Virus record (IMG/VR): IMGVR_UViG_3300032315_001715
Span: 62,001 to 126,000 of that record
Length of the DNA stretch: 64,000 nucleotides
Direction: 5' to 3' (one strand)
Origin: a virus
Shown: in pieces, positions 12,764 to 56,834 of the stretch
How the letters are laid out: every line of letters starts with the position of its first letter
How positions within the stretch are numbered: position 1 is the stretch's first letter
Notes under the pieces: model-generated
Databases searched by the model: none
Seen by the model: the letters and a program-made list of their open reading frames with translations, nothing else
Told to the model about the DNA's origin: nothing
Position numbers and translations under genes: made by a program

Positions 12764-13216
12764 TCAGCTTGTGCCGTTGAGCTTTTCACACAGCTCGAGG
12801 TAAAACTGATGATAACGTGCCATCCTTGCGATGTCCTTTTCCGTGATGCCCTTGAGCCGACGCACATCGGTGTTGTGTCGAAGATCGGCTTGCTTGACCA
12901 TCATGGCATCACGGTTAGCGAACACTCGCATCTTGTATTCGTCCAGGGTTTCACCAGGCAGCTTGGTAAGTGTGGAGATACCCTTGATGATCCGTTCCGA
13001 GATACCAGCCTGCCTTAGGTCATGGTAGGTAACGTCGGTGTCCTCGATCACGTCGTGTCCAAGTGCGATGCATTGCAGCTCCTCGTCATTGCTCTTGAGA
13101 TAGTGCATGACCTTGAGGGGATGCAGGATGTACGGCTGCCCGCCCTTGTCGTATTGGCCAGCATGTGCGTTGGTGACCAGCACCAACATGCGTCCGAGCA
13201 TTTCACCCTTTTTCAT
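12764..13216 (-). CDS. HD-domain (p)ppGpp hydrolase-like protein
   Basis: 150 aa, start MKKGEML at 13216 set by GAGGAG. AHAGQYDKGGQPYILHPLKV, LGHDVIEDTDVT and VKQADLRHNTD match the HD hydrolase half of RelA/SpoT and the stand-alone Mesh1/SAH family. Metal ligands His, HD and the later Asp are present; no synthetase domain. Predicted to degrade the alarmone and blunt the host stringent response. Confidence 0.8.
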   Translation of the reverse strand: MKKGEMLGRMLVLVTNAHAGQYDKGGQPYILHPLKVMHYLKSNDEELQCIALGHDVIEDTDVTYHDLRQAGISERIIKGISTLTKLPGETLDEYKMRVFANRDAMMVKQADLRHNTDVRRLKGITEKDIARMARYHQFYLELCEKLNGTS

Positions 13217-13245
13217 CAACAGCTCCTCGGTTTGTATCATAAACA

Positions 13246-13274
13246 AGGTTAGCATTGATTACACCGGAGATCAA
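13246..13274 (-). promoter_or_regulatory. early sigma70-type promoter
   Basis: TTGATC, 17 nt ending ATGC, TAACCT; upstream of the HD hydrolase. Confidence 0.6.
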
Positions 13275-23486: not shown

Positions 23487-23795
23487 TCAGGATTCTTCGA
23501 TCTCACATCGCAACGGATACTTATTGGTCCTAGCTGCATGGATTGTTTCGTCACGCTTCTGCGATGCAATCTCTAGGCTGTATGTACCAGCAACACCGCG
23601 TCCATTTTCATGTATAAGCATGGTCAGCTGGCTTGCAGCATCAAAATTCTTGTGGAATATCGTCATCAATACCAAGACCACAAATTCAACCGTGGTCTTG
23701 TCATCATTGTACAAGACCACGTTGAACTTGCTCGGAGGACGCATAACCACCTTTATCGATGACTCAATGTCAGTTACCGTGTCAGTTTCAGCCAT
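23487..23795 (-). CDS. clpS: ClpS adaptor
   Basis: 102 aa, usual length. FNVVLYNDDKTTVEFVVLVLMTIF is the N-degron pocket region, followed by the conserved AASQLTMLIHENGRGVAGTYSLEIA. Delivers proteins with destabilising N-terminal residues to ClpAP. Own promoter (23814-23842). The window also has ClpX but no ClpA or ClpP, so it must work with host Clp proteins. Confidence 0.93.
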   Translation of the reverse strand: MAETDTVTDIESSIKVVMRPPSKFNVVLYNDDKTTVEFVVLVLMTIFHKNFDAASQLTMLIHENGRGVAGTYSLEIASQKRDETIHAARTNKYPLRCEIEES

Positions 23796-23813
23796 GCGTT
23801 GCTCCTTTAGTCT

Positions 23814-23842
23814 ATTCTAGCCGTACGAGATCGGCTTGTCAA
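23814..23842 (-). promoter_or_regulatory. early sigma70-type promoter
   Basis: TTGACA, 17 nt ending CGGC, TAGAAT; drives clpS. Confidence 0.7.
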
Positions 23843-24327
23843 GCCACCCGGTTGGTTTCAGATTCGATAACCGTGTTGATTGCCTCGTGATTTCCAATGG
23901 TGATCTTTCGAGGTTTCATGCTTTCCGGGATCTCCTGATCAAAATCAATGGTAAGGATACCGTTGGCTAGATTGCTGCCGGTTACCTTGATCATCGAGTT
24001 AAGATAGAAGATCCTGCGAAAGCTACGACCAGCGATGCCCTTGTGCAGATACTTACGGACATCTTCCTGATTGACCTTGCCTTCGATGGTCAGCACCCCG
24101 TCGTGCAAGGTGATGTCGAGGTCGTCGGCTGAGAATCCTGCCACAGCCATGCTCAGGCGGTAGCGGTCCTCATCAATGCTTTCGAGATCGTATGGCGGAT
24201 AACCGGTTGTTGCCGTATTGCGGACCTGGTCCAGCATGCGGAAAGTGGGTTCAAAACCCACGGCAAAACGGTTGAAGTCGCGGAACATTTCCGCAACGGT
24301 ATTGTCTAGTGTGGTTAGGCTTCGCAT
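23839..24327 (-). CDS. small heat-shock protein (Hsp20/IbpA type)
   Basis: 162 aa. Alpha-crystallin domain from about residue 45 (YDLESIDEDRYRLSMAVAGF) to SNLANGILTIDF, with the IPESMKPRKITI tail. Holds unfolded proteins during stress. Strong AAGGAGG ribosome site. Hsp20 is common in large phages. Confidence 0.92.
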   Translation of the reverse strand: MRSLTTLDNTVAEMFRDFNRFAVGFEPTFRMLDQVRNTATTGYPPYDLESIDEDRYRLSMAVAGFSADDLDITLHDGVLTIEGKVNQEDVRKYLHKGIAGRSFRRIFYLNSMIKVTGSNLANGILTIDFDQEIPESMKPRKITIGNHEAINTVIESETNRVA

Positions 24328-24440
24328 GGTGTTTACCTCCTTGAAAAAAGCGAAGTAGATTTAGGACCCTAGATAGGCGTCCGGGTTAACCGAAGTTAAC
24401 AACCGTATTAAACGATCGTTAACCCCGATATGTCAAGACC

Positions 24441-24749
24441 TTAAATGTTGGTCGATTCAGTGATCACCGAGCGGTTCACAACCTTTTCAAACCGCTTCGG
24501 TTTCTTCTTCTTTGGCGTGTCCAGTTCCATGATCTGGGCATACTTCTTCTTCCAACGAAGCTTTGCTTCGGCAAGCTTCTGTCGGCGGACGATCGAAGGA
24601 GACGTGAAATGCTTGCGCTTCCGCAGTTCCTTGTTAACCCCTTCGCTGTTCATGCGACGCTTGAGCTGCGCAATCGCGCCCTCGATATTACCATTGAAGA
24701 CCTTTACGGTCATGCCCTTCTTCCTGAGCACGAAATCGTCGTTATCCAT
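24441..24749 (-). CDS. rpsU: ribosomal protein bS21
   Basis: 102 aa (bacterial S21 about 70). VKVFNGNIEGAIAQLKRRMNSEG, then KRKHFTSPSIVRRQKLAEAKLRWKKK matches S21 helices. Binds the 30S platform near the anti-Shine-Dalgarno; phage copies are thought to replace the host protein and favour phage mRNA. Extra C-terminal tail is Lys-rich. Confidence 0.92.
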   Translation of the reverse strand: MDNDDFVLRKKGMTVKVFNGNIEGAIAQLKRRMNSEGVNKELRKRKHFTSPSIVRRQKLAEAKLRWKKKYAQIMELDTPKKKKPKRFEKVVNRSVITESTNI

Positions 24750-24810
24750 GTTATCCTTGTTCCCTGGATGATATGTGTATGTATTTTTTACTGATAGCTT
24801 GGTGGTAGTG

Positions 24811-25386
24811 TCAAGCTTTCTTTATTGATGGGGCTATTACGGCCATCAGCATACGACCGTTCATCTCCGGTGGTTTTTCGATCTTGCATGGACCGAGTCC
24901 ATCGATAAAGCTTTGCATGACCTCAAAACCCCGTTGGGTAAAGCTCAACTCTCGGCCACGGAATTTGATCACCACCTTGACCTTGTTGCTGTCTGCTAAA
25001 AATTCTTTGGCGTGGTTCTGCTTGACCTCAATGTCATGCTTGTCTGTTACCGGACGAAGCTGGATCTCCTTGATAACGGTGGCGTTTTCTCTGGATTTTT
25101 TTTCCTGCTCTTTTTTAGCACGCTTGAGATTATACACCCATTTGTTTAGATCCACCATGCGAACCACAGGAGGTTTAGCGTCGGCGGTGATCTCGATTAG
25201 ATCTAGCCCTTTGTCTCTAGCCGTCCATAGTGCCTGCCTGGTTGGCATGACTCCGAGCTGCGAACCATCTTCGTCAACCACACGGACCTCTTGGTATCGT
25301 ATGCGTTCATTGCTAACGATTGCGTCCTTGATCGGATCTTCCGTGCGGCGAGGACCTCGCCTATCTCTTTGATAAAATCCACTCAA
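24811..25386 (-). CDS. infC: translation initiation factor IF-3
   Basis: 191 aa. N-domain NERIRYQEVRVVDEDGSQLGVM, Lys-rich linker (KRAKKEQEKKSR), C-domain IQLRPVTDKHDIEVKQNHAKEFL and KVKVVIKFRGRELSF. Start codon is TTG, overlapping the clpX stop as TTGA, with AGGGG 9 nt upstream. Cellular infC also uses a rare start and is autoregulated through it, so this may be too. Confidence 0.94.
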   Translation of the reverse strand: MSGFYQRDRRGPRRTEDPIKDAIVSNERIRYQEVRVVDEDGSQLGVMPTRQALWTARDKGLDLIEITADAKPPVVRMVDLNKWVYNLKRAKKEQEKKSRENATVIKEIQLRPVTDKHDIEVKQNHAKEFLADSNKVKVVIKFRGRELSFTQRGFEVMQSFIDGLGPCKIEKPPEMNGRMLMAVIAPSIKKA

Positions 25387-26624
25387 GATGCAGTCCCCTG
25401 TTCTTGATCATAGACCTTTAATGGTTCGCTCATATTTTCAACAGTCTCCCTTGTTATGCAGATTTTTTTCACGTTTTGTTTGGAAAGATTGGGTAGTTCA
25501 AATTGTACACCCAACAGGATGTTTTCGACAATGCTTCTCAGCCCTCGAGCACCGGTCTTGCGAGACATGGCCATTGCTGCAATGGCCTTGAGACTATCTT
25601 GGCTAAATTCGAGCCCGATCTTATCAAGCTTAAACATCTTTTGGAATTGCTTGACGATGGCATTCTTCGGTTCGGTTAACACTCGTATCAATGCTGCCTC
25701 ATCGAGATCATCAAATGTAACTATGATCGGTAAACGACCGATCAACTCTGGTATGATACCAAACTTAACCAGGTCCTCGCTGCGCACATCCTTGATGAAC
25801 GCCGCGTTGCTCTGCCGGACGGTTGGATCCTTAACCGATGCACCAAATCCAATAGAGGTATTACCTTCACCTTGCCGCCTCTCGATGATGCGATCAAGAC
25901 CTTCAAATGCCCCACCGACAATGAATAGGATGTTTTTGGTATTAATGGTAACGAAATCACCGTTAGGGTTCTTTCGACCGCCCTGCGGAGGTATCTTTAC
26001 TTCGCACCCTTCGATCATCTTGAGCAATGCCTGCTGTACGCCTTCGCCACTGACATCGCGTGTTACCGAGGTGTTTTCACTCTTGCGTCCTTTTTTGTCG
26101 ATCTCGTCGATGTAAACGATGCCTCGTTGGGTTTTCTCGATGTCCATTTCTGCGGCATGAAATAGTTTTGCAATGGCATCCTCGACATCTAATCCAACGT
26201 ATCCACTTTCAGTCAGGCTAGTAGCATCGACTATGGCAAACGGTACGTCCATGATCTTGGCAATGTTTTGGATGGTATAGGTCTTGCCCGTACCAGATCC
26301 ACCTATGAACAACATGTTGCTTTTGTCGATTTCAACCCCGTCGATTACTGGATTATTGATCCGCTTGACATGGTTGTAAACAGAGACCGCAAGGGTTCTC
26401 TTGGCATGTTCCTGTCCGATGACGTATTCGTCCAATCGAGCTTTGATCTTGCTTGGTATGATATCCTTTTCTGGTATTGCTTTGGGTGCATCCTGCCGTA
26501 TGATTTCATGGCACAGCATGATGCATTCGTCACAGATGTAAACATCATTACCAGCGACTAACTTGCTAACTTGCTGCTGATTCTTGTCACAGAAACTGCA
26601 TTGGTGATAGACCTTAGTGGTCAT
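25383..26624 (-). CDS. clpX: ClpX ATPase
   Basis: 413 aa, full length. N-terminal zinc domain (CSFC, CDEC), Walker A GGSGTGKT, Walker B IVYIDEIDK, pore loop near GYVGLD, sensor motif GARGLRSI. Start MTTKVYH chosen because the ribosome site (GAAGGG) touches the first ATG. Unfolds tagged proteins for host ClpP, including tmRNA-tagged ones; the phage also makes a tmRNA. Confidence 0.95.
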   Translation of the reverse strand: MTTKVYHQCSFCDKNQQQVSKLVAGNDVYICDECIMLCHEIIRQDAPKAIPEKDIIPSKIKARLDEYVIGQEHAKRTLAVSVYNHVKRINNPVIDGVEIDKSNMLFIGGSGTGKTYTIQNIAKIMDVPFAIVDATSLTESGYVGLDVEDAIAKLFHAAEMDIEKTQRGIVYIDEIDKKGRKSENTSVTRDVSGEGVQQALLKMIEGCEVKIPPQGGRKNPNGDFVTINTKNILFIVGGAFEGLDRIIERRQGEGNTSIGFGASVKDPTVRQSNAAFIKDVRSEDLVKFGIIPELIGRLPIIVTFDDLDEAALIRVLTEPKNAIVKQFQKMFKLDKIGLEFSQDSLKAIAAMAMSRKTGARGLRSIVENILLGVQFELPNLSKQNVKKICITRETVENMSEPLKVYDQEQGTAS

Positions 26625-26666
26625 GAGACCGATCATTCCCTTCTGGTTGTGATATTATGATAGTGG

Positions 26667-31885: not shown

Positions 31886-32101
31886 TTGAAAGATACGATT
31901 GAGCTCGGAGAAAAGCTCAGCAACAAGCTGATAGCCTGCGTCACTGAGCTAAATTTACTGTTGCAGGAGGCAAACAACATCGGTCTCCATGTGATTCTTC
32001 AGAAAGACGAAATTTATGTCAAAGACGTACCGCTGCCAAAGATTTCGATCAAGAAATCGACATATCGAATCGAATACATCGACGCTGTTAAACCCGATTG
32101 A
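31886..32101 (+). CDS. small protein (71 aa)
   Basis: Only available start is TTG. Helical N-terminus (GEKLSNKLIACVTELNLLL) and basic beta C-terminus. Overlaps the Smr frame. Moderate coding appearance; unknown. Confidence 0.45.
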   Translation: MKDTIELGEKLSNKLIACVTELNLLLQEANNIGLHVILQKDEIYVKDVPLPKISIKKSTYRIEYIDAVKPD

Positions 32102-32456
32102 TCAACAACTATGGAATGATTATGTGTCTGGGCAACTGCGATTACCGGATAACAGTCGGTCTTCGCCTCCGGTACAAAAGCCGATATACCTGAAAAAGAG
32201 CCTAGATCTGCATGGAATGACCGTACAGCAAGCCTACCATCGTACCGAGGAATTCATTGGATCGCATCATCGGCTTGGGACCAAACAGGTTGTTATAATC
32301 TGCGGCAAGGGTGGTAGGATAGCATACGAGCTACCGCTATGGTGCAACCGATTTGGACAGATATCCAAGATCATACCAATCGTCGACAGCCGAGGTGAAC
32401 ACGGGTCGTATCGAATCGTGTTGAAAGTTAAAAATATCCGAGATTTTCCTGCATAA
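32016..32456 (+). CDS. Smr-domain protein
   Basis: Up to 146 aa; the real start may be near 32090 because the first 25 residues overlap the upstream gene. Smr core: SLDLHGMTVQQAYHRTEEFI, then VVIICGKGGRIAYELPLW. Smr domains nick or bind branched nucleic acid and, in some proteins, cleave mRNA on collided ribosomes, which fits the tmRNA theme. Confidence 0.8.
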   Translation: MSKTYRCQRFRSRNRHIESNTSTLLNPIDQQLWNDYVSGQLRLPDNSRSSPPVQKPIYLKKSLDLHGMTVQQAYHRTEEFIGSHHRLGTKQVVIICGKGGRIAYELPLWCNRFGQISKIIPIVDSRGEHGSYRIVLKVKNIRDFPA

Positions 32457-48896: not shown

Positions 48897-49730
48897 TTGA
48901 GAATCATTGAATTGGCTAGAAACATCATCAAGGAATCATTTACCGACATCAGCGTTGTTAAACTTGGCATCGGTGCATTGGTAAATCAGGCAGATGCCGA
49001 TCTAGGTGATGAAGCCGCGGCCGCCATAGACGCATTTGTTGGGGTTCCCCACGATGCGATAAAAAAAGGATATACATTTGGAATCATGCATTCCAGACCG
49101 CTTGAAGACGCATATTCTTCCAATCCAAGTCCCCGAGGAATCAAAATGCGTCAGCAGTTGGATTCGGCATTTGCTCCTATAAAGTCGGCATTGAAGTCTA
49201 AGTTTGGCAATGTTATGACGTTGTATCGAGGCCAAGAGAGCATTGATAATGAGAAAACGGAAAGAACCACACTTAGCTGGACATCCGATCCCCGAATTGC
49301 TGCCACGTTCGCCGGTATCGAACCGTGGGAAATGAAGCTGAAGCCCATTACCGATGAACAAATACAATCCGCATTGGACACATATGCCAAAACAGGAGAG
49401 GTTAAATTCCTCAGGAACCGATACGTTCGCACGGACACTCCGACTGATGAGGAAGGAAAGGACGAATTCTATTACGACATATATGACAATCACGACGATC
49501 TACTAACCGACGGCGACGATCTTGAGAATGAATTCAAGGATCATCAGAGATACCATCAGGAATTGATAGATAAACGGGCTCGAAAACTTACAAAGGTGGT
49601 CAGGGCTGAAATACCAGTTGATGACATCATCTGGATAACCGATCGCGCGGGACAAAGCGAATTCATCCTGCACAATCGGCCTGGTGCTCGAGGTTACATT
49701 GATGCTAAAGGAAAGCTGATAAAAGGATAG
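48897..49730 (+). CDS. Alt-like mono-ADP-ribosyltransferase with capsid-targeting-like leader
   Basis: 277 aa, TTG start with GAGAGG upstream. Leader MRIIELARNIIKESF resembles T4 Alt/IP leaders. R-S-E catalytic triad order is visible: Arg in MTLYRGQES, SWTSDPRIAATFAG for the STS strand, and QSEFIL (Q-x-E) near the C-terminus. T4 Alt is packaged, injected and modifies RNA polymerase; this protein has the same layout in a smaller form. Target unknown. Confidence 0.82.
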   Translation: MRIIELARNIIKESFTDISVVKLGIGALVNQADADLGDEAAAAIDAFVGVPHDAIKKGYTFGIMHSRPLEDAYSSNPSPRGIKMRQQLDSAFAPIKSALKSKFGNVMTLYRGQESIDNEKTERTTLSWTSDPRIAATFAGIEPWEMKLKPITDEQIQSALDTYAKTGEVKFLRNRYVRTDTPTDEEGKDEFYYDIYDNHDDLLTDGDDLENEFKDHQRYHQELIDKRARKLTKVVRAEIPVDDIIWITDRAGQSEFILHNRPGARGYIDAKGKLIKG

Positions 49731-49749
49731 GGCGGGATTTCTCCCGCCC
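49730..49749. terminator. bidirectional terminator hairpin
   Basis: GGGCGGGA, TTTC loop, TCCCGCCC between the ADP-ribosyltransferase stop and the 3' end of the tmRNA gene. Confidence 0.75.
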
Positions 49750-49754
49750 CTTCT

Positions 49755-50005
49755 GTTTCTAGGCCTTCCTTGTGGCCCAATGGAATTACGCTGCTAGCAG
49801 CTCATTCTCAAATGCTGCGTTATCATTTGCTGCATTTACAATTTTCTTGCGTTAAGGTAGCTTGCGCACCGCAACCGCACTATTGCTAGATTCCTTTTGC
49901 CCTTAATGCTGCCAATCGATCCCAAATCCGGCCCATAAATGGTGGACCGGAGGAGAATTGAACTCCTGTCTTGTTCAGCTTATTTGGCTACAGTCAAACA
50001 GTTAC
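49755..50005 (-). ncRNA. ssrA: two-piece permuted tmRNA
   Basis: Acceptor piece first: T-arm AGGAG-TTCAATT-CTCCT (49951-49967), acceptor CCGGTCC, A, CCA (49940-49950). Then a 5-nt linker and the coding piece: GGGCCGG (49928-49934, pairs with the acceptor, one G-U), D-analogue GGGATCGATTGG, and the tag frame 49786-49830. Tag: ANDNAAFENELLAA then TAA. Order and ANDN tag match alphaproteobacterial permuted tmRNA. Rescues stalled ribosomes; LLAA end should target ClpXP. Outer ends are approximate. Confidence 0.9.
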
Positions 50006-50011
50006 ATCTTT

Positions 50012-50040
50012 ATTTATGCGAAATTCTCCTCAGTTGTCAA
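50012..50040 (-). promoter_or_regulatory. tmRNA promoter
   Basis: TTGACA, 17 nt, ATAAAT; the -10 overlaps a TAAATA, so it may work both early and late. Confidence 0.65.
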
Positions 50041-50834
50041 CCTCGTATTCTCCCCCTTTTTAATCCAAGATTAGATATTGTTGGGTCCAATTTTTTTAGG
50101 GAGTAATTTCTATGCCCGTCATTATACCAAGATCGTCCATACGCCGGTGATTTATGATTCTTTTTCAAATCTTTCCATTGATCCAATGAGATCCATCCGT
50201 TTGGTTCAGAACCAGGAATATACCTATGACAGGTGTTCAATATTGAAATGCTTGGGATCGGGCCTTGATGATTTTGATCGATAAAAAATTTGGTACCATG
50301 CATACCGTTCCGATTACCTGACATTGATTTTGATAACCTGGCAACACGCTCGGCTCTTTTTTCTGGAGATAACCCTTTCCATTTATTTGGATCAATCTGT
50401 CCATTTGTTATTCGAGCTTTCCATCCATGATTTTTAGCATTGGCCCAAGTTTCTTCGGTCCAATACTTGGTCCCTCCTACTTTAATTTCCCCAGATTGGC
50501 ATTTTTGTCGAAGTGCCTGTAGATTTTTGCGATGTTCGGGCAAATCGTGATTAATGTGATCCCAACCTCCAACACCCCCGCATTTAAGATTATAAGTATC
50601 TTTCCTTTTTACAAACGATTCTGTTACAATTTCAGCTTCTGCGGCAAAAGCGTCGTCAGATGATTCAAAAGTTTCTATGATTTCTTTTCTGAAGTTATGA
50701 ATTCCATATTTCTTTATTGCCCGAATTATTGCCGTACCCGAACCCATGTAATCATCGTCAAATGATTCAGATTTATGTACGCCGACATAGATTTTATGAT
50801 TGATAAGATTTGTGATGCGATATAGATAATACAT
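50037..50834 (-). CDS. GIY-YIG homing endonuclease
   Basis: 265 aa. YYLYRITNLINHKIYVGVHKS is the GIY-YIG start, followed by the catalytic helix and C-terminal WYNDGHRNYSLKKLDP module. Sits immediately upstream of the tmRNA, its stop touching the tmRNA promoter. ATG 50834 has TAAATA 4 nt upstream. Confidence 0.87.
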   Translation of the reverse strand: MYYLYRITNLINHKIYVGVHKSESFDDDYMGSGTAIIRAIKKYGIHNFRKEIIETFESSDDAFAAEAEIVTESFVKRKDTYNLKCGGVGGWDHINHDLPEHRKNLQALRQKCQSGEIKVGGTKYWTEETWANAKNHGWKARITNGQIDPNKWKGLSPEKRAERVARLSKSMSGNRNGMHGTKFFIDQNHQGPIPSISILNTCHRYIPGSEPNGWISLDQWKDLKKNHKSPAYGRSWYNDGHRNYSLKKLDPTISNLGLKRGRIRG

Positions 50835-50838
50835 CAAC

Positions 50839-53803: not shown

Positions 53804-54508
53804 TCACAATTCTGAATGCTGTTTATGTACGAGCCTACCATCGACGGTTCGATCTATCCATACGCTATGGGGCGGAGGAGTTTTACCAGCATGTTGGTAA
53901 TGCCAAGCCCATCTAGAATGGTAGTTTACCGTTGCGGTAGGAACGTGGTGTTTCGCCATGTTGCTTTGGATCACGGATGCCCAAAATTGCCTGTCGCTCC
54001 ATAAGCGCATGGCTGATTCCGTGATCCAGTATGTTAACAAATGCAACGCCGGCTTGCCAATAAACATGCAATTGGTATCACAAAAATCTCGGCCATTGCT
54101 TTCGACATCATCAACATATAGGTGATCCCCCGATTCAGTGCAGATGTTTCGAGTTGCTGTTACGATTGCCGCACCGGTCGATCGCATCGTGTCAACCATG
54201 GTCGATACGTGATCAGTGCAAAATGTGTTATCAGCATCAAGGAACGCAACCGCATCGTATCCGCGGCTAAACGCCGAAATAGCACCAATTGCCCTTGGAG
54301 TTGCACCAGCATCAGCATGTTGTACTGGTAATATCATGTGTTCAATGTTGGCAAATATTTTAAGACAGGGGTGTGGTAATCCGTCAGCTATAAACATATG
54401 CGTAACATCGCCATAATCCTGAGATGCCACCGAATCGTGGCATCTCTTTAAGATTTCATATTTCTCATTGTGATAGGGTGTTACAACCGCTACACGAGTT
54501 GTGGTCAA
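53804..54508 (-). CDS. GT2 glycosyltransferase
   Basis: 234 aa. VAVVTPYHNEKYEILKRCHDSVASQ and AVAFLDADNTFCTDH (D-x-D). Start is TTG overlapping the upstream stop (TTGA). Second GT2 enzyme of the window. Confidence 0.85.
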   Translation of the reverse strand: MTTTRVAVVTPYHNEKYEILKRCHDSVASQDYGDVTHMFIADGLPHPCLKIFANIEHMILPVQHADAGATPRAIGAISAFSRGYDAVAFLDADNTFCTDHVSTMVDTMRSTGAAIVTATRNICTESGDHLYVDDVESNGRDFCDTNCMFIGKPALHLLTYWITESAMRLWSDRQFWASVIQSNMAKHHVPTATVNYHSRWAWHYQHAGKTPPPHSVWIDRTVDGRLVHKQHSEL

Positions 54509-54939
54509 AGGCTAAGCCCCTTGAAACTATTTTCGTCGACGTCCATCTTAGCATCACCGATCTTATAACTTGAGATCTCCTGGCGATAGTAATCTGGAAT
54601 TTGATTCTTCAAAATGCAGAACATGTTATAAGTTCTCCCATCCATGAAAGGGGTTATGTCTATTAACCTGTTTTCCCAGGTTTGAATTACGCTATGCAAG
54701 ATAGCTATATGACCATCACGGTTAATATCTCTCAGAAGGTAATATCCAATAATACGAGTGCCACCATACCAATTAGTATATTCGATGGTATTATTGTGGC
54801 AGTCCCACTCCTTACAAAATGGTTTTGATATGATTGGAACCATTCCAATCCAGCGAGCGTCAAGAGATTTTGCAAAATCAATAAGGTCTTTATCAAGCTC
54901 CGGTATGATGAACATTTTCTGATCTAATCTTCCATCCAA
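54505..54939 (-). CDS. unknown protein carrying a copy of the NrdB C-terminal tail
   Basis: 144 aa (or 136 from MFIIPEL). The N-terminal 120 residues have KEWDCHNN, WYGGTRIIGYYLL, ILHSVIQTWENRLIDITPF, a pattern seen in uncharacterised bacterial proteins. The last 23 residues (ISSYKIGD...FKGLSL) are identical to the end of NrdB 1.2 kb away. That tail in R2 proteins binds R1, so this protein may bind NrdA. Confidence 0.7.
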   Translation of the reverse strand: MDGRLDQKMFIIPELDKDLIDFAKSLDARWIGMVPIISKPFCKEWDCHNNTIEYTNWYGGTRIIGYYLLRDINRDGHIAILHSVIQTWENRLIDITPFMDGRTYNMFCILKNQIPDYYRQEISSYKIGDAKMDVDENSFKGLSL

Positions 54940-55660
54940 CTGCAGGACCTGACCTCGGACGATATTCAGGATGATACAACATCTTATGCATGGTTGCTAG
55001 GGCAAGTCCAAGTGATCTGCAAAATTCATCTAGATTACCAATTGTAATATGGTCCATACCAGTTGGGTCTGTCAAAATCCATCTATAGCTTTTCTTATTG
55101 GCCGCACCTTTGTATTTTGAGTTTGCAGCACCGATCTTAGATTTCCTTTCATCCGGACATGACCCCAAAATTCTTCCCTTACCTTTGGCAGAAATTTTCT
55201 CTCTTGTTTCTTTGCTATGGATTTTGGGGCCATATCCTCCCCTAGATTTTTGTAGCATTGATCGAAAAGCACGCTGTTGGTCTGCCTTTTCTTTTGATCC
55301 ATATATTTCTTCGTAAGATTTGCCTTTGTGATTTGGCGGTCTTGAATCTTCGCAAATGTTAGTAAGTATTCCGCCTTTGTTGTAGCCCTTGCGTCCATAT
55401 TTTTTGATCAGAGAAGCTTCGAGCTCATATGCTATGTCTTCATCAATTATATTTTCTGCAACATAAATTATCTTGGGCTCAAGGCCTGCTGCTCTTATAG
55501 CAGTGATTTTGTTTTCTTTGTGCATGTTACGGGTTTCTGGTATTTCCCACAAATGAGTGATGGCTCTACGACCCGTTCCTTTGCCCACATAAAAAGGCTG
55601 ATCGTTTTTTCTTGGATCAGCCAAAATATAAACATAATAAGTTATCTCTGTCTCCTGCAC
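54893..55660 (-). CDS. GIY-YIG homing endonuclease next to nrdB
   Basis: 255 aa, GTG start within a hairpin arm. ITYYVYILADPRKNDQPFYVGKGTGRR is the GIY-YIG core; SKETREKISAKGKGR a NUMOD-like repeat; C-terminal helix-turn-helix-like LDEFCRSLGLALATMHKMLY. Overlaps the NrdB-tail gene by 47 nt. Confidence 0.87.
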   Translation of the reverse strand: MQETEITYYVYILADPRKNDQPFYVGKGTGRRAITHLWEIPETRNMHKENKITAIRAAGLEPKIIYVAENIIDEDIAYELEASLIKKYGRKGYNKGGILTNICEDSRPPNHKGKSYEEIYGSKEKADQQRAFRSMLQKSRGGYGPKIHSKETREKISAKGKGRILGSCPDERKSKIGAANSKYKGAANKKSYRWILTDPTGMDHITIGNLDEFCRSLGLALATMHKMLYHPEYRPRSGPAVGWKIRSENVHHTGA

Positions 55661-55700: not shown

Positions 55701-56834
55701 TTATAAACTTAGGCCCTTGAAACTATTCTCGTCGACGTCCATCTTAGCGTCACCGATCTTATACGAGGAAATTTGGACTTGCTGAGGTGCCACCTGCACT
55801 TCCTTGCCGGAAATCCATTTGTTGGTCCACGGTAGTGGATTAGCCTTTCCCTTGTAGGGGCTATCGAGGCCAATGCTAGTCATGCGAGAATGTGCGATGT
55901 GTTCGACATAATCCTTGAGCAATGCTGCATTAAGACCAATCATCGATCCATCCTTGAACAGATAATCGGCCCAGGCCTTTTCTTGATCAATGGCAGAAAT
56001 AAACATCTTGGTAACCTCATCCCTGCACTCGATTTCGATTTCAACAAAATCAGGATCGTCCTTCGGCAACAGCTTTATCAATGTCTGCGTGCTGCCGAGG
56101 TGTAGATTCTCGTCACGGCAGATAAATTTGATGATCTTGGCATTGCCTTCCATCTTCTTCAATTCGGCAAATGCCCAAGAGCACGCAAAGCTAACGTAAA
56201 ATCGAATACCTTCAAGTGCATTAACTGAATTAAGACACAGCCACAATCTCTTCTTTAGTTCCCTGCGACGTATGTCGATGGTCTGGCCATTGACGCTGTG
56301 CGAACCTTCTCCTAGTAGATGATACCACTGGGTGTATTCGATCAAGCTGTCATAATACTTGGTGATATCCCTGGCGCAGTCGACGATCTGTTCAATATCG
56401 AGCATGGTATCAAATACCTTGCCGGGATCCGGATAGACGTTGCGGATGATGTGCGTGTAGCTCTTGGAGTGGATGGTCTCGGAAAATGCCCAGGTCTGTA
56501 TCCAGGTTTCTAGCTCTGGTAGTGAGCAAATGGACAGGAACGCGAGATTTGGCGCACGCCCTTGCACGCTGTCGAGGATTATCTGTCGCTTGAGGTTGGA
56601 CGTAAAGATGTGCTGTTCATGCGGACTCAGTGCGCGAAAATCCTTCTGGTCCTTGGTTACATCAACTTCCTGTGGTCTCCAGAAGAAACTTAGCTGGTTC
56701 TCGGTAAGACGATCAAACACGCGGTATTTGATGTTGTCATATCTAGCAACAGTTGTGGTGCCAGATTGGTCCAGGAATGCCCGGACCTTGGTGCTGTTGG
56801 CTCTGTTGCCGCTGTCTAGTGTATGGAATGTCAT
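55701..56834 (-). CDS. nrdB: ribonucleotide reductase small subunit
   Basis: 377 aa, full length. Di-iron ligands in EQHIFTSNLKRQ, SETIHSKSYTHI and CRDENLHLGSTQ; the radical Tyr region is near FSETIHSKSYTH. Usual R1-binding C-terminal tail (DENSFKGLSL). AGGAGA ribosome site. Makes deoxynucleotides with NrdA. Confidence 0.95.
   Translation of the reverse strand: MTFHTLDSGNRANSTKVRAFLDQSGTTTVARYDNIKYRVFDRLTENQLSFFWRPQEVDVTKDQKDFRALSPHEQHIFTSNLKRQIILDSVQGRAPNLAFLSICSLPELETWIQTWAFSETIHSKSYTHIIRNVYPDPGKVFDTMLDIEQIVDCARDITKYYDSLIEYTQWYHLLGEGSHSVNGQTIDIRRRELKKRLWLCLNSVNALEGIRFYVSFACSWAFAELKKMEGNAKIIKFICRDENLHLGSTQTLIKLLPKDDPDFVEIEIECRDEVTKMFISAIDQEKAWADYLFKDGSMIGLNAALLKDYVEHIAHSRMTSIGLDSPYKGKANPLPWTNKWISGKEVQVAPQQVQISSYKIGDAKMDVDENSFKGLSL

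Follow-up and report, generated by a model that had tools for sequence, protein, structure and literature searches.

The virus analysed here, a bacterial virus known from a 452,799-bp IMG/VR record, carries a gene for a permuted two-piece tmRNA on the minus strand at about 50005-49729 of the window (the whole 64-kb stretch that was analysed, bases 62001-126000 of the record). We consider it very probable that this RNA is functional, acting in ribosome rescue and tagging in dependence on the SmpB of the host. The original prediction had proposed such a phage-encoded RNA, with a tmRNA covariance search as a check, and two methods now concur on it: the Rfam family RF04321 (tmRNA_permuted) matches at 49999-49786(-) over the full model (1-213) with 67.7 bits (E 7e-11 over the window), above the curated cut-off of 47 bits, and ARAGORN calls a permuted tmRNA* at 50033-49695(-), its sole match in the 64 kb. 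In the whole record, RF04321 matches once, at this same gene. Other tmRNA models of Rfam fit less well: cyano_tmRNA was not reached (39.9 bits vs. a cut-off of 70), and alpha_tmRNA (RF01849, cut-off 50 bits) was neither listed for the window tmRNA at the gathering threshold nor its best match in the clan, while the related viruses L489 (82.2 bits) and Phosso (108 bits) pass the latter model. A blastn search of the gene against named phages was set aside, giving only tRNA-like chance matches. Of 200 shuffled sequences, 199 folded less stably than the precursor (z = -2.94), whose acceptor hairpin is found in the minimum-energy and centroid structures alike.

The order of the parts along the minus strand (Table 1) has the acceptor piece ahead of the coding piece, as foreseen, the strand being a detail not given earlier. 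The two acceptor halves were also expected to pair, and they do so in 7 of 7 positions (GGGCCGG at 49934-49928 with CCGGUCC), including G3-U70, which is the alanine identity pair; one non-standard pair is seen in P2 of the RF04321 model. The promoter scores 11 of 12 against TTGACA/TATAAA, and it was omitted by a strict generic promoter scan because its second hexamer is atypical. Promoter elements scoring at least 10 precede 16 of 29 viral tmRNAs with tags starting AANDN (1.05 in shuffles) and 54 of 69 with tags starting ANDN (2.8 in shuffles). A late T4-type promoter was also considered, given that TATAAATA precedes most viral tmRNAs, yet a TTGACA box is located 16-18 nt ahead of it (17 in most), which is better explained by a promoter of sigma70 type.

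Downstream of the tag, GAAACAGAA is found no more than 80 nt away in 25 of 28 viral AANDN genes. Stem 2 of the pseudoknot cannot form at the place usual for the family, the sole candidate pairing being a short AAGGA/UCCUU match on the far side of the hairpin, and a compact H-type pseudoknot (UUCC/GGAA) after the tag was rejected by hand, as no loop would be left that could cross the stem. The hairpin that closes the gene is terminator-like on the plus strand too, for the convergent ORF, and its stem in L489, the nearest relative, reads GGGGCAGGA/UCCUGCCCC, with one compensatory change from G-C to A-U.

Table 1. Positions (in the window) of the tmRNA gene parts, the adjacent genes and the candidate partner proteins.
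Feature	Position	Strand	Details
sigma70-like promoter	50040-50013	-	TTGACA 50040-50035, 16-nt spacer, CATAAA(TA) 50018-50013
Acceptor piece	49940..50005	-	RF04321 alignment; P2 5' strand, T-arm, acceptor 3' strand; 5' end predicted
T-arm	49967-49951	-	AGGAG-TTCAATT-CTCCT; T-stem 5/5 pairs
Acceptor 3' strand	49950-49944	-	CCGGUCC, then ACCA end 49943-49940
Intervening segment	49935..49939	-	TTTAT, 5 nt; probably removed by RNase P and 3' trimming
Coding piece	49751..49934	-	Acceptor 5' strand GGGCCGG, D-loop with TCGA, tag frame, 3' pseudoknot region
Tag reading frame	49786..49833	-	AANDNAAFENELLAA + TAA; ARAGORN, RF04321 alignment
3' pseudoknot element	49751..49778	-	GGGCC 49778-49774 / GGCCU 49765-49761, then GAAACAGAA 49759-49751
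Terminator hairpin	49729..49750	-	GGGGCGGGA-GAAA-UCCCGCCCU, 9 pairs, partly T-rich tail ATCCTTTTAT
Convergent 277-aa ORF	48897-49730	+	No Pfam or PHROG match; kept beside tmRNA in L489
GIY-YIG homing endonuclease	50037..50837	-	Pfam SegE_GIY-YIG 1.7e-6; PHROG 314 homing endonuclease 1.5e-44
Phage ClpX	25383..26636	-	Zinc finger (C4), Walker A/B, GYVG pore loop, IGF loop, sensor 2; possible tag reader
Phage ClpS adaptor	23487..23795	-	PF02617 E 2.3e-26; PDB ClpS 3dnj 2.7e-17
Stand-alone Smr-domain protein	32016..32456	+	PF01713 E 1.4e-10; LDLHG motif

The tag itself needed one correction. Its frame and its LAA end are as first described, but the earlier reading (ANDNAAFENELLAA) misses the first alanine codon, and ARAGORN gives AANDNAAFENELLAA, one alanine longer, from the codons GCA GCA AAT GAT AAC at 49833-49819. 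In the RF04321 alignment the difference appears as three extra nucleotides, GCA, which the consensus UAAAUGCA-AACGAU lacks. Since the UAAAU ahead of the resume codon is intact, the simplest reading would have translation resume at the first GCA of the tag frame, and resume codon, stop and hydrophobic AA end are all present in this frame.

The AANDN start seems to be a viral trait. The pattern TAAATGCNGCNAAYGAYAAY, which demands a TAAAT context present in some bacterial genes only, matched 104 stretches in viral contigs, about 39 of them permuted tmRNAs with AANDN according to ARAGORN, vs. 111 stretches in 84,980 bacterial and archaeal species genomes, none of which was a tmRNA, and a chance origin of the viral pattern was rejected on these counts. 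None of the 50 bacterial tmRNA genes read by ARAGORN starts AANDN, nearly all having ANDN. A search for the exact tag found its core in none of the 84,980 species genomes, consistent with the earlier claim of a tag unlike that of the host. Among alphaproteobacterial genomes (359 of 385 with a tmRNA), a shortened pattern matched a single one of the 385, at a place which is not the tmRNA of that genome; this genome is the chosen centre of the set, reached via a chance match. Within viruses, the single-alanine ANDN is commoner than AANDN among the matches listed, and the tag of the nearest relative, ANDNVAFEEVRLAA, has one alanine, so the extra alanine was rejected as a clade marker and appears to be a recurrent viral variant, which may be neutral. 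We found no description of a virus-restricted AANDN tag start in the open-access papers searched. An unusually long predicted tag (25 residues, ANDNFVRNEQIAQSIVVRDRDLVAA) was seen in a different phage tmRNA (L485, virus record G417).

The gene is kept by many related viruses. RF04321 matches 16 of the 29 virus records related via ClpX or ribonucleotide reductase (NrdA), 15 of them above the cut-off, one of the 16 (G389) being a second assembly of the same virus. In the nearest relative, with a ClpX 87% identical, the position of the tmRNA is unchanged, with an arginase gene on one side and, on the other, the convergent 277-aa ORF known from the window, and the final third of the coding piece aligns closely, terminator hairpin included. 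The two viruses differ far more in the acceptor piece and in the initial 45 nt of the coding piece than at the tag end, as if the gene were a mosaic. Across 75 distinct viral acceptor/T-arm sets, pair 3-70 is G-U in all 75, and compensatory variation (CG, GC, AT, TA) is seen at pairs 4-69, 5-68 and 6-67. These counts give support but are not independent: tag patterns had supplied most of the genes before ARAGORN called them, and the stem-finding script rewarded pairing and a G-U at 3-70, so that the numbers are tilted towards both.

Mobile DNA often integrates at tmRNA genes, and fragments of them do occur in viral contigs. That the window gene is of this kind, a captured host gene or an artefact of assembly with no function for the phage, is nevertheless hardly credible. 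The gene is complete, it has promoter and terminator elements of its own, its AANDN class was seen in no bacterial genome searched, and it keeps both its position in L489 and its presence in the related records. Moreover, a separate IMG/VR contig is identical over 3,936 bp (100%, no mismatch); it represents the same virus and not an independent relative, and this segment having been assembled twice argues against a chimera or an assembly accident. A second alternative would be a decoy, an RNA that binds SmpB or ribosomes and blocks the trans-translation of the host instead of tagging. A tmRNA of phage DS6A consisting of the tRNA-like domain only has been reported as inhibitory (PMC11915505, PMC4131195), but the window gene has an intact tag frame, a stop codon and an LAA end, and the tag frames are kept with differing codons among relatives, which makes the decoy very improbable.

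Among named alphaproteobacterial phages, permuted tmRNAs were found in Phosso, phiCbK and RHph_I1_18. The one of Caulobacter phage phiCbK (NC_019405.1, L504) lies at about 103283-103601 (71.4 bits, ARAGORN tag VAANDNDVVAFASAREAIAA), a stretch across which the RefSeq record has no tmRNA feature annotated, and a GOLLD RNA is located about 0.5 kb from it on the opposite strand.

Regarding partner proteins, the ClpX, ClpS and Smr protein that had been named together with the tmRNA are all borne out by their domains (Table 1), ClpX having all its main motifs. The Smr-domain protein had no PDB sequence match and is a possible mRNA-cleaving partner. The cluster at 23487-26636(-) comprises ClpS, Hsp20, an S21-like protein (PHROG), IF3 and ClpX, and a similar ClpX-IF3 pair is found in Sinorhizobium phage Phosso. 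Neither SmpB (PF01668) nor SspB had a match in the 452,799-bp record, an absence that is provisional, as the record may be incomplete; SmpB is lacking as well in 30 other virus records, most of them with such a tmRNA. The proposal that the phage runs its own ribosome rescue is thus right in that the tmRNA is its own, but not in any independence from the host, since rescue must borrow SmpB, alanyl-tRNA synthetase, RNase P and ribosomes from the latter.

Outside the window, the same record encodes a ClpP-like protein (PF00574, 104.7 bits) with a short N-terminal part, in which the Ser-His-Asp positions align. It matches head-maturation protease families too (PHROG 94), and we withdrew its assignment as a certain Clp peptidase on account of these matches. 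The RKH loop of E. coli ClpX affects SsrA recognition. In the phage ClpX this loop reads RKN, also in the five close relatives recovered, and RKH in a more distant one. A dedicated tag-directed protease pathway of the phage is possible. The conserved RKN, the presence of ClpS and of a ClpP-like protein, and a tag core seen in none of the species genomes could fit a private channel, with the tag read mainly by the phage ClpX (together with phage or host ClpP) and kept separate from the host system. We regard this as unlikely, given that the ordinary LAA end and AANDN are kept and should be read by host ClpX/SspB, that the ClpP-like protein has matches among head-maturation protease families too, and that the record has no SspB. 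Somewhat less probable still is an evolutionary version, in which phage two-piece tmRNAs would have repeatedly gained AANDN, not found in bacteria, and the tag would here have co-evolved with the RKN ClpX into a degradation channel separate from the host.

The reading we prefer, a functional phage tmRNA working with host SmpB, can be outlined as follows. Host sigma70 RNA polymerase would transcribe one short precursor, probably early in infection, with its end at the hairpin 49750-49729. RNase P would cleave 5' of G49934 and 3' trimming would expose the CCA at 49940, the acceptor RNA and the coding RNA being presumably joined by the acceptor and P2 helices, as in bacterial two-piece tmRNAs. 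The alanyl-tRNA synthetase of the host would then charge the molecule via G3-U70, and host SmpB would deliver it to ribosomes stuck on broken mRNAs, of which many are to be expected in an infected cell. Such a ribosome would resume on the tag frame, add A-AANDNAAFENELLAA and stop at UAA, thus becoming free for phage translation, and the tagged fragment with its LAA end would be degraded by ClpXP, using host ClpX, phage ClpX or both. As the tag keeps both general features of bacterial tags (AANDN start and LAA end), host ClpXP should be able to read it.

With respect to the neighbouring genes, the stop codon of the GIY-YIG homing endonuclease falls within the -35 box of the tmRNA promoter, and this endonuclease is missing at the syntenic place in L489. 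The convergent ORF shows weak similarity to proteins of two phages, RHph_I1_18 (Rhizobium) and phiM9 (Sinorhizobium). Elsewhere in the window, the end of a 144-aa ORF (54505-54939(-)) repeats, with 93% identity, the terminal 56 nt of the gene for the small subunit of ribonucleotide reductase (55701-56834(-)), and a GIY-YIG-like ORF (54893-55660) lies between the two tails, apparently a duplicated gene tail flanking a homing-endonuclease-like insertion. The product of 12764-13255(-) is a metal-dependent phosphohydrolase (PHROG 990) and may be a small HD protein resembling ppGpp hydrolases. The ANDN core of the tag, the alpha_tmRNA matches of L489 and Phosso, and the best named protein matches, to Rhizobium and Sinorhizobium phages, point to an alphaproteobacterial host.

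Two-piece tmRNAs are already known from phages, making up 53 of 133 unique phage tmRNAs, with a two-piece tmRNA (ssrA) described in the Methylophilales phage Melnitz (Buchholz et al., 2022; PMC9004378), and the tmRNA database holds 79 phage tmRNAs (PMC11915505). The Melnitz tmRNA, which we recovered again with RF04321, is permuted and has an alphaproteobacterial-type ANDN tag as here, its gene lying behind an early promoter; its tag (ANDNYVPVDYALAA) has a single alanine, unlike the window tag, and it was reported with a glutamine riboswitch, none being seen here, in a 141 kb genome (PMC9004378). The Sinorhizobium jumbo phage AP-J-162 (PMC11242549) and Phosso (PV764938) are alphaproteobacterial phages of about 470 kb with a tmRNA and clpX beside IF-3, as in the present virus. 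AP-J-162 is reported to have 66 tRNAs (PMC11242549), whereas ARAGORN found none in this window. Phosso has a ClpX 55% and a ClpP-like protein 53% identical to those of the window phage and a permuted tmRNA of 113 bits, but differs in its one-alanine ANDN... tag frame and in a very long intervening segment. The alpha_tmRNA family (RF01849; Alphaproteobacteria, e.g., Caulobacter) has in common with the window tmRNA the permuted order, the G-U acceptor pair, the ANDN core and the AACAGAA motif of the 3' pseudoknot; the window tmRNA departs from it in scoring below the cut-off, in its extra Ala codon, in having GAAACAGAA in place of the usual GCAACAGAA and in the hairpin inserted in the 3' element. 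Huge phages (Al-Shayeb et al., 2020; PMC7162821) share with this virus the tmRNA and, among their translation genes, IF3, and the window record has its S21-like protein (PHROG); some of them are reported to encode SmpB, unlike the window record.

Overall, this gene is a new, well-supported example of the phage two-piece tmRNAs already published, and the combination of tmRNA and ClpX also has a precedent in AP-J-162. The giant phage that carries it also encodes a large part of the proteolysis set acting downstream (ClpX, ClpS, ClpP-like) but leaves SmpB to the host, and the tmRNA gene is retained across a phage clade. With tractable isolates such as Caulobacter phage phiCbK and Sinorhizobium phage Phosso, the role of phage tmRNAs and the reason for extra-alanine tags are testable in standard laboratory hosts.
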